Assembly: GCA_013416405.1 (NCBI GenBank)
Contig: JACCET010000005.1
Coordinates: forward strand, 124,001-188,000
Direction of reading: 5' to 3'
Length of the DNA: 64,000 bases
Source: Alcaligenaceae bacterium
Lineage (GTDB): Bacteria > Pseudomonadota > Gammaproteobacteria > Burkholderiales > Burkholderiaceae_B
Shown in pieces: positions 1-3,032 of this stretch. Made by a program: the position numbers and the translations under genes. Each line of letters starts with the position of its first letter. Within the stretch, counting starts at the first letter, position 1. A model generated the notes under the pieces. The model ran no database searches. It had not been told where the DNA came from and was given only the letters and a program-made list of their open reading frames with translations.

Positions 1-1878
1 CGCCAGTTCACGATTGCCATCACACGCTTGCAGCACCTCACGCAGCAGCGCGAGTTCGGTCTGCGCCCGACTGGTGCGCAGCGCCTGATGGGGCTGCGTG
101 TCCGGCGCCCGCCCCGCAAAAAGCTCCGGCGCAATCTCGCGTAGATCTTCAAGCGTGATCGGGGCCGCCTGCGCCGGCCCATGAAACACCATGGCGCGCT
201 CTATCAGGTTCTCAAGCTCCCGGATATTCCCCGGCCAGGCGTAATTTTCCGCCGCTTCCACTATCAGATGAATCAGCCTGTCGTCGACCGGACCCGGGCT
301 GTTCAACCTGAGGGCTATCCTGTCGGCCAGATGTCGCGCCAGAACGGGAAGATCGGCGCGGCGCTCTCTTAATGCAGGCAAATGCACCAGCAGGATATTC
401 AAACGGTAATACAAGTCCTGGCGGAACTCTCCCTGCAGCACCCGCTGCTCCAGATTGCGGTGCGTGGCCGCAATCACTCGCACATCGACGGGCGTAGGCT
501 CAGTCGCACCGATACGCAGCACTTCTTTTTCCTGCAGCACCCGCAAAAGCCTGGTTTGCAGCGATAAAGGCATATCGCCTATTTCATCCAGGAAAATCGT
601 GCCGGTGTGCGCCGCCTCGAACAAGCCAACCTTGCCGCCACGACTGGATCCGGTGAACGCGCCATCCACATAGCCGAAAAGCTCGCTTTCCAGCAAAGTA
701 TCGGGAAACGCCGCGCAATTGATGGCAACAAAGGGCTGGGATTGGCGTGCGCCGGCATTATGTATGCCTTGCGCCAGCAGCTCTTTGCCGGTGCCGCTCT
801 CACCCACAATCAGCACGGTAGCACTGCTTTGCGCGCAGGTCTGTGCGCGTTGCCTGACCCGCGCCAGCGCCTTGCTTTGCCCTATGAGGTTCTCCAGCCC
901 GTATTTAGCATGACGCAAGCCTGGCTGCGCCCGGGAACGCAAGCTGCGATCCAGGCGCTGAATGACGATGGGATCCTGGCAGATAAGCACCGCGCCCGTT
1001 TGTCGGCCCTGCTCCACAATAGGCATGCGCGTGACAACCACTGTCTTGCCGCCCACCTGTTGAACATGCTCAAGCTCGGCCTGGCCTGTGCGCAAGGTGT
1101 TGGCCAGACTCAGCTCGCGCCGCAGCGCGCCCAGACGTTGGCCGATAAGCTGGTCGGCCGGCATGCCCAGGATAGCTTCCATTTCCGGGTTGACCGTCTC
1201 GATGCGCTCATCCAGATTCACCGCCACGACACCATCCTTAAGCTGCCCCAATATGGTGCTGAGCTTCTCACGCTTGGCTGCCTCCAGGCGTGCAATGCGC
1301 GCCACTTCGATGGCGCCTTCCATGGCTTCGCGCACGGCGCCCTGGGAATACAGCAGCACACCATCCAGACCATAGGAGCGAGCCAGGTCGACCACCAGGC
1401 CAGGCGCAACCACCGCCTGTACGCCCAAAGCCAGCAAATCTTGCACACAGGCCTCGGCCTCTTGCTCGGTTGTGTAGGAACGCAGTTCAACACGCAAGGA
1501 AAAGCGTTCGTTGAAGTGGGCAAGCTCGGAAGGCACGGTGCCGTATGTGACCACGGCCAGCCGGTTGGATTTACCCGAGGCACGCGCCAGGCCCTGCATA
1601 ACATCAAACCCACCCGGCTTGACCAGCACCACCGGCAGATCCAAGTGTTCCCGCAGAAAACTTCCGTTCGACCCCGCTGACACCACCGCATCGACCCCAC
1701 CGGCCTGTCGCAAGACGGCAATGCCGGCCACCGCGTCATCGTAAGCCTTATCCAAAATAACGACTTCAGCCAAAGCGCGGTAAGCGGGTGCAAGCTCTTC
1801 GAGCAGCGCGCGCAAACCATGAAATCCTACCGCGGCAATACGCAGGCGAGGGCCGCCCGGAGCCGGGAAAAATGCCAT
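1..1878 (-). CDS. prpR: PrpR, sigma54-dependent activator of propionate catabolism (3' end outside window)
   Basis: Transcription factor that senses a methylcitrate-pathway intermediate and activates the divergent prp genes with sigma54 RNA polymerase. Reading on the minus strand from ATG at 1878 the frame is open to base 1 (626 codons). Visible in order: a PrpR_N-type sensor region, a PAS-like segment, then the AAA+ domain with Walker A GESGTGKE near residue 358, the sigma54-contacting GAFTGS loop near residue 410, FLDEIGD, and the start of a Fis-type helix-turn-helix (LREVLQACDGNRELA) at the window edge. Only about 20 residues of the C-terminus should be missing. It is divergent from prpB with about 250 bp between the starts. 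The family call is firm; the inducer is known from PrpR homologues, not from this sequence. Confidence 0.93.
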   Translation of the reverse strand, partial: MAFFPAPGGPRLRIAAVGFHGLRALLEELAPAYRALAEVVILDKAYDDAVAGIAVLRQAGGVDAVVSAGSNGSFLREHLDLPVVLVKPGGFDVMQGLARASGKSNRLAVVTYGTVPSELAHFNERFSLRVELRSYTTEQEAEACVQDLLALGVQAVVAPGLVVDLARSYGLDGVLLYSQGAVREAMEGAIEVARIARLEAAKREKLSTILGQLKDGVVAVNLDERIETVNPEMEAILGMPADQLIGQRLGALRRELSLANTLRTGQAELEHVQQVGGKTVVVTRMPIVEQGRQTGAVLICQDPIVIQRLDRSLRSRAQPGLRHAKYGLENLIGQSKALARVRQRAQTCAQSSATVLIVGESGTGKELLAQGIHNAGARQSQPFVAINCAAFPDTLLESELFGYVDGAFTGSSRGGKVGLFEAAHTGTIFLDEIGDMPLSLQTRLLRVLQEKEVLRIGATEPTPVDVRVIAATHRNLEQRVLQGEFRQDLYYRLNILLVHLPALRERRADLPVLARHLADRIALRLNSPGPVDDRLIHLIVEAAENYAWPGNIRELENLIERAMVFHGPAQAAPITLEDLREIAPELFAGRAPDTQPHQALRTSRAQTELALLREVLQACDGNRELA

Positions 1879-2046: not shown

Positions 2047-2063
2047 TTGGCATGCCTATTGCT
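2047..2063 (+). promoter_or_regulatory. Sigma54 (-24/-12) promoter P1 for prpB
   Basis: TTGGCATG-N4-TTGCT: the -24 GG is at 2049-2050 and the -12 GC at 2061-2062, with the exact spacing of the sigma54 consensus (TGGCACG-N4-TTGC). It fits with PrpR being a sigma54 activator. Confidence 0.7.
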
Positions 2064-2082
2064 TTATTAAGGTATTCGCCAA

Positions 2083-2098
2083 TGGCACAGCCATTGCT
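2083..2098 (+). promoter_or_regulatory. Sigma54 (-24/-12) promoter P2 for prpB
   Basis: TGGCACA-N4-TTGCT with GG at 2084-2085 and GC at 2096-2097 is a second, slightly better consensus match 35 bp downstream of P1. A start near 2109 would leave a short leader that still contains the AAAGAGG ribosome site at 2113-2119. Confidence 0.7.
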
Positions 2099-2126
2099 TG
2101 CCCCCACTGAACAAAGAGGTTTCGAC

Positions 2127-3032
2127 ATGTCCAATACCCATTCCCAAGTTCAATCGGCCGGAGCACTGTTCCGCCAGGCCTTGAAAGAAGAAAGCCCCCT
2201 GCAGATCATAGGCGCCATCAACGCCAACCATGCCTTGCTGGCCAAGCGGGCGGGCTATAAAGCCATTTACCTGTCCGGTGGCGGCGTGGCTGCAGGCTCA
2301 TTGGGTTTGCCGGATCTGGGCATCAATACGCTGGACGATGTACTGACTGACATCCGCCGCATCACCGATGTATGCGACGTACCCCTGGTTGTCGATATCG
2401 ACACCGGCTTCGGCCCTTCGGCCTTCAACATCGCCCGCAGCATCAAAAGCCTGATCAAGTTCGGCGCTGCCGCTTGTCACATCGAGGACCAGGTTGGCGC
2501 CAAGCGCTGTGGCCACCGTCCTGGCAAGGAAATCGTAACCGCCCAGGAAATGGTCGACCGCGTCAAGGCAGCTGTTGATGCACGCACCGACAGCGACTTT
2601 TTCATCATTGCACGCACCGATGCCATCGCCGTCGAAGGCGTGGATGCCGCACTGGATCGCGCAGCCGCCTGCGTCGAAGCGGGCGCCGATGGCATCTTTG
2701 CCGAAGCATCCTACGATCTGGCCACTTTCGAGCGCTTCTCCAAAGCCCTGAACGTTCCAGTTCTGGCCAATATCACCGAGTTCGGCAAGACACCTTTATT
2801 CTCGGTTCAGGAACTCGAATCGGCCGGGGTCGGCATGGTACTGTATCCACTGTCCGCTTTCCGTGCAATGAACAAAGCCGCCGAATCCGTTTACGAGGCC
2901 ATACGTCGTGATGGCCACCAGAAAAACGTGGTCGACATGATGCAAACGCGTGAAGAACTCTACGATCGCATCGGCTACCACGACTATGAATCGCGACTTG
3001 ACGCCCTGTTCCAACAAGGCAAATCGAAATAA
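2127..3032 (+). CDS. prpB: 2-methylisocitrate lyase
   Basis: Last step of the methylcitrate cycle: splits 2-methylisocitrate into pyruvate and succinate. The 301-residue product belongs to the isocitrate lyase/PEP mutase superfamily. The catalytic signature KRCGH is at residues 126-130 (Cys128), with VDIDTGFG upstream as part of the Mg-binding region. I chose ATG 2127 because AAAGAGG precedes it at proper spacing and MSNTHS matches the usual N-terminus; a longer frame from 2052 would begin inside the sigma54 promoters. First gene of prpB-prpC-acnD-prpF, 20 bp before prpC. Confidence 0.96.

Follow-up and report, generated by a model that had tools for sequence, protein, structure and literature searches.

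In the window, the whole 64,000-nucleotide stretch of DNA analysed, two sigma54-type -24/-12 matches stand in front of prpB, and the upstream one, P1, is well supported by sequence comparison as the PrpR/sigma54 promoter of this gene. On balance, our analysis favours a model where prpB is driven by P1 alone and the downstream match, P2, is mainly a by-product of a hairpin or palindrome within the leader. A second promoter at P2 is improbable, although real uncertainty attaches to this reading. We infer the start sites, the folding or other use of the repeat and the non-promoter status of P2 from sequence. The promoter arrangement in front of prpB looks largely ordinary, as does P1 itself.

Layout of the prpR-prpB region and the two -24/-12 matches

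Table 1. Positions of the features between and including prpR and prpB, in window coordinates
Feature	Position	Strand	Description
prpR	1..1878	-	sigma54-type activator of propionate catabolism; frame runs past the low end of the window
UAS TTTCATATTTGAAA	1925..1938	.	presumed PrpR binding site, palindromic; binding predicted
P1 -24/-12 element	2048..2063	+	likely prpB promoter, predicted start ~2074
Inverted repeat CAATGGC-ACA-GCCATTG	2080..2096	+	possible stem-loop at ~+7 of the P1 transcript
P2, second -24/-12 match	2083..2098	+	overlaps the inverted repeat
AAAGAGG	2113..2119	+	prpB ribosome-binding site, read directly
prpB	2127..3032	+	2-methylisocitrate lyase; ATG at 2127; PEP_mutase/ICL domains

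PrpR carries PrpR_N, PAS and Sigma54_activat domains within the window and, in the part of its frame beyond the window's end, HTH_8, and the intact GAFTGS loop that the first-pass annotation had ascribed to it is read directly in the translation. Downstream of prpB (Table 1) the gene order is prpC, acnD, prpF and a prpD-family gene. The closest named relative is Pusillimonas sp. MFBS29 (L001), whose PrpB is 97% identical. Between positions 1850 and 2200 there are two sigma70 promoter-like matches (plus strand 1878-1905; minus strand 1949-1921) where 0.4 are expected, with none on the plus strand between the UAS and prpB, and no terminator-like site is found in the same interval. The spacer between UAS and P1 includes one of the best-kept stretches of the region, TTTCCTTTTTGCTACTATGACTTAGGC at 1987-2013, with 23 of 27 columns fixed across the four genomes of the genus. 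By eye, several other Burkholderiales loci have at this place a AATCAANNACTTA-like sequence, which resembles the IHF consensus; scanning the family loci upstream of P1 with the same consensus turned up no consistent match.

P1 reads TGGCATG-CCTA-TTGC (2048-2062) and P2 reads TGGCACA-GCCA-TTGC (2083-2097). They stand 35 bp apart with 10 bases from GG to GC in both, so the earlier description of two complete -24/-12 elements holds, and each agrees with the consensus TGGCACG-N4-TTGCT in 11 of 12 letters. The usual spacing from the -12 element would place their starts at ~2074 and ~2109, leaving leaders of ~53 and ~18 nt respectively, and P2 would lie wholly within the region transcribed from P1.

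This pair is unlikely to have arisen by blind chance alone. The pattern TGGCAYRNNNNTTGC has 31 matches (18+13) in the 3.66-Mb genome and its reversed control has 5; of the 31, no two but those at prpB lie within 100 bp of each other. The looser TGGCAYNNNNNTTGC has 57 matches (control, 7), from which the expected number of equally close pairs in the genome is 0.014 under random placement and 0.002 at the control's density. It is because of this low expectation that P2 needs an explanation within this genome. Across the family the tandem sigma54 design does not recur: such a pair is present in 2 of 268 genomes, that of the window and G211, against 1 for the reversed control. The G211 pair (L123, C1:684361-684398, minus strand), the only other strict tandem pair among the 268 genomes, has 8 bp between its sites.

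Conservation of P1 and P2 in relatives

A match to the PrpR N-terminus is present in 90 of the 268 family genomes, of which 30 loci were read, the window's own included, with prpR and prpB divergent in all. The P1 counterpart, chosen by hand as the good site closest to the gene, retains TGGCA and the -12 GC in every one of the 30 and scores 8 to 12 of 12 letters. This conservation, together with the presence of rpoN, underlies the assignment of P1 as the PrpR/sigma54 promoter, and further marks of such a promoter are also present: GG-N10-GC in front of prpB, a divergent prpR whose product has a GAFTGA-type loop, and a palindrome upstream. An upstream site of the form TTTCA-N3-5-(T/C)GAAA is recognised in 25 of the 30 loci; its distance from P1 is 121-125 bp in 16 of these and 84-189 bp in the remaining 9. 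TTTCA-N4-TGAAA is the form that stands at 121-125 bp, and 8 of the 16 loci with this spacing come from one genus (g4) and are thus not independent.

Within the window's own genus, where the comparison rests on four genomes, 14 of 16 columns of P1 are fixed, including all 12 letters read by sigma54, and both changes fall in the spacer (2 of 4 letters fixed). The UAS is similarly well kept (13 of 14 columns), as is the ribosome-binding site before prpB (A(A/G)AGAGG in 4/4), against 6 of 16 columns in the interval that separates P1 from the repeat, 7 of 16 after the repeat and 117 of 248 for the intergenic region as a whole. Among 80 loci selected by PrpB, some of them too short upstream to tell whether PrpR is present, 16 have a PrpR match upstream of prpB and all 16 were read. 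The other 64 (L003-L031 and others; Achromobacter, Bordetella etc.) have no sigma54-type PrpR match beside prpB.

The picture for P2 is different. A second GG-N10-GC with at least 9 of 12 letters downstream of P1 is present in 3 of the 30 family loci, all of this genus, with scores of 11 in the window's genome and 9 each in G210 and G209. In the fourth genus member, G208, TTAC replaces TTGC and the -12 GC is gone. Among the 16 PrpB-selected loci with PrpR, a P2-like site occurs in L001 alone, which is taken as the same genome as G210. The first-pass annotation had proposed tandem sigma54 promoters, with P2 as a staged or backup start, and had suggested that an intergenic comparison would reveal whether both sites are conserved. 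The P1 half of that proposal is well supported by comparison, and a second complete -24/-12 element does exist, but the two elements are not kept together in relatives: among the loci read P2 is confined to the genus, is intact in the window's genome alone, and its fixed positions track the inverted repeat better than a promoter. Across the four genus genomes 10 of 16 columns of P2 are fixed, made up of 7 of the 12 sigma54-read letters and 3 of the 4 spacer letters, so the spacer is kept better than the letters that sigma54 would read, the reverse of P1. C2097, which belongs to P2 and lies outside the repeat, is fixed in 4/4.

The leader repeat and rival readings of P2

In the four genus genomes the arms of the inverted repeat have 11 of 14 columns fixed and its centre none of 3, reading ACA, CCA, TAC and AGA. 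All four genomes retain five of the seven pairs, in one case by way of a G-U, while the two end pairs are each disrupted in a single genome. Such conservation suits a repeat whose centre is free to change more than it suits a sigma54 element. Several results weigh against the repeat reading, the fixed C2097 outside the repeat among them. No pair has a double-sided change among the four sequences, so compensatory change is not seen in the stem. By folding energy the four leaders do not stand out from shuffled sequences (p 0.12, 0.14, 0.23 and 0.54). Equally long stems turn up in 70 of 5000 shuffled leaders and, among 3762 53-nt pieces cut from the window, in 82. Rfam returned only two matches, both far below the gathering score (E 0.61 and 0.64) and on the minus strand.

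A similar repeat, CGATGGTCCGCCATTG, is visible by eye farther downstream in G224; MAFFT did not place it against the genus copies, and the counts leave it out. A leader hairpin as a rule of the family was rejected after 30 leaders were folded, those of other genera being mostly without one. The leaders of eight Alcaligenes-like loci (L103-L109, L111) do fold into a short hairpin, located at +7 or +8 in the predicted P1 transcript, with shuffle p of 0.01-0.15; the stem of L111 is a different one in the same placement. The motif ATGGCNNNGCCATTG was considered as a dispersed regulon operator and set aside. Across the four genus genomes it was listed at 23 places. Of these, 4 fall at prpB, with one place in the window's genome counted twice, and no regulon operator is seen because 18 of the 19 other places lie inside open frames of at least 100 aa.

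Activators of sigma54 promoters bind upstream and contact the polymerase through DNA looping. In the favoured model, PrpR bound at TTTCATATTTGAAA, ~123 bp upstream, would reach a polymerase waiting at P1 in this way. The transcript from ~2074 would open with the inverted repeat, which may fold as a stem-loop upstream of the ribosome-binding site. P2 would then take its TGGC from the left arm and its spacer CCA and following TTG from the right arm, and only in this species would the remaining letters complete the match. As to what the repeat might do, the simplest guess is a contribution to leader stability.

The main alternative, that P2 is a true second PrpR/sigma54 promoter of recent or species-specific origin, giving a ~18 nt leader as a backup or staged start, appears unlikely. 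It would account for the quality of the match with its exact spacing, for the low expectation of a close pair, for the retention of GG-N10-GC in three of four genus genomes and for the invariance of C2097, a base that the repeat does not claim. It sits poorly with the lack of any site of at least 9 letters in the other 26 family loci read, the degradation of P2 in G210 and G209, the missing GC in G208, letters that vary more than the spacer between them, a position inside the initially transcribed region of P1 and the rarity of tandem pairs in the family. P2 might instead be a secondary sigma54 binding site at which holoenzyme feeds, delays or blocks P1 and starts no transcript of its own. The sequence quality of P2 is consistent with such a role, as is the proposal of similar roles near sigma54 promoters in the accessible portion of PMC3844500, but the lack of conservation weighs against it exactly as it does against a promoter, and we consider it quite improbable. 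Equally improbable is that the conserved P2 bases are where a small upstream ORF starts, or, in the window, where prpB has an alternative start (2082). In favour, ATG GCN NNN CCA TTR is kept in 4/4 genomes of the genus, and the Ala and Leu codons change at their third base. Yet the frame differs between genomes: it is in frame with prpB in the window, runs for 8 codons to a TGA in G210 and in G208, and stays open through the part read in G209. No ribosome site is seen before 2082 within the predicted P1 transcript, and it is the A(A/G)AGAGG before the later prpB start that is kept. Translation from the in-frame ATG at 2082 would extend PrpB N-terminally by 15 residues.

A further possibility arises from the presence of two rpoN genes in the window's genome (G000; C1:9250-9717 and C33:272697-273164). 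The rpoN genes of the genus fall into a group b (G000b, G210b, G209a and G208), 80-88% identical within the group, and a group a (G000a, G210a and G209b), 69-78% identical, with G208 having the group b (C33-type) gene only. The three genus members with RpoN-a keep the GG-N10-GC of P2, and G208, which is without RpoN-a, has lost the GC. At n=4 this joint loss is a lead that may be coincidence. P2 could be a working sigma54 site for the second RpoN, or compete through it, such that two RpoN proteins share one PrpR-controlled operon through staggered sites with the P2 polymerase braking or relaying P1. We regard this as very unlikely. Near the group-a gene of the window's genome lie genes for a response-regulator activator, an AAA+ activator that lacks a receiver domain, a member of the glutamate dehydrogenase family and an ABC transporter whose solute-binding protein is of family 3, surroundings that hint at a role outside propionate use. 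According to the available part of PMC4676750, the -11 base helps to separate RpoN1 and RpoN2 promoters in one bacterium. This base is T at both P1 and P2, and hence gives no hint of a split between the two RpoN proteins.

The favoured model of P1 as sole promoter carries a caution, in that the arms of a leader inverted repeat can supply most of a near-perfect -24/-12 match next to a genuine promoter, and column-by-column comparison of near relatives can separate the two. It also provides prpB in these bacteria with a testable start site and a conserved spacing of the activator site. If P2 were active, the two sites would form a tandem sigma54 pair of a kind rare in nature, and in a genome that encodes two RpoN proteins.

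Comparison with known systems

A literature search on tandem, dual or overlapping sigma54/RpoN promoters, which covered sources in part and mostly outside subscription papers, named no tandem pair before prpB. The arrangement here is like that of Salmonella prpBCDE, with PrpR, sigma54 and IHF, in having a -24/-12 site before prpB. In the accessible part of PMC3844500 the Salmonella site TGGCATAGCCTTTGC is bound by sigma54, and it resembles P1, TGGCATGCCTATTGC. The two systems differ in that the operon here is of the acnD/prpF type and that a single site is given before Salmonella prpB in the same portion of PMC3844500, against two matches in the window. A need for IHF at the Salmonella promoter is indicated by a cited title, whereas no IHF site is established in the window.

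Ralstonia solanacearum, a Betaproteobacterium, also provides a parallel: PrpR precedes prpB, the operon has an RpoN promoter and there are two rpoN genes. RpoN1 is required there for growth on propionate; the part of PMC4676750 that describes this mentions an RpoN promoter for the operon and no tandem pair. P2 itself can be compared with the secondary sigma54 sites found by ChIP-chip in Salmonella, which, in the available text of PMC3844500, have a good consensus off the expected promoter and in some cases drive weak expression. P2 is likewise a good consensus match away from the expected promoter, and differs from those sites in lying within a leader, 35 bp from the likely promoter and overlapping an inverted repeat.
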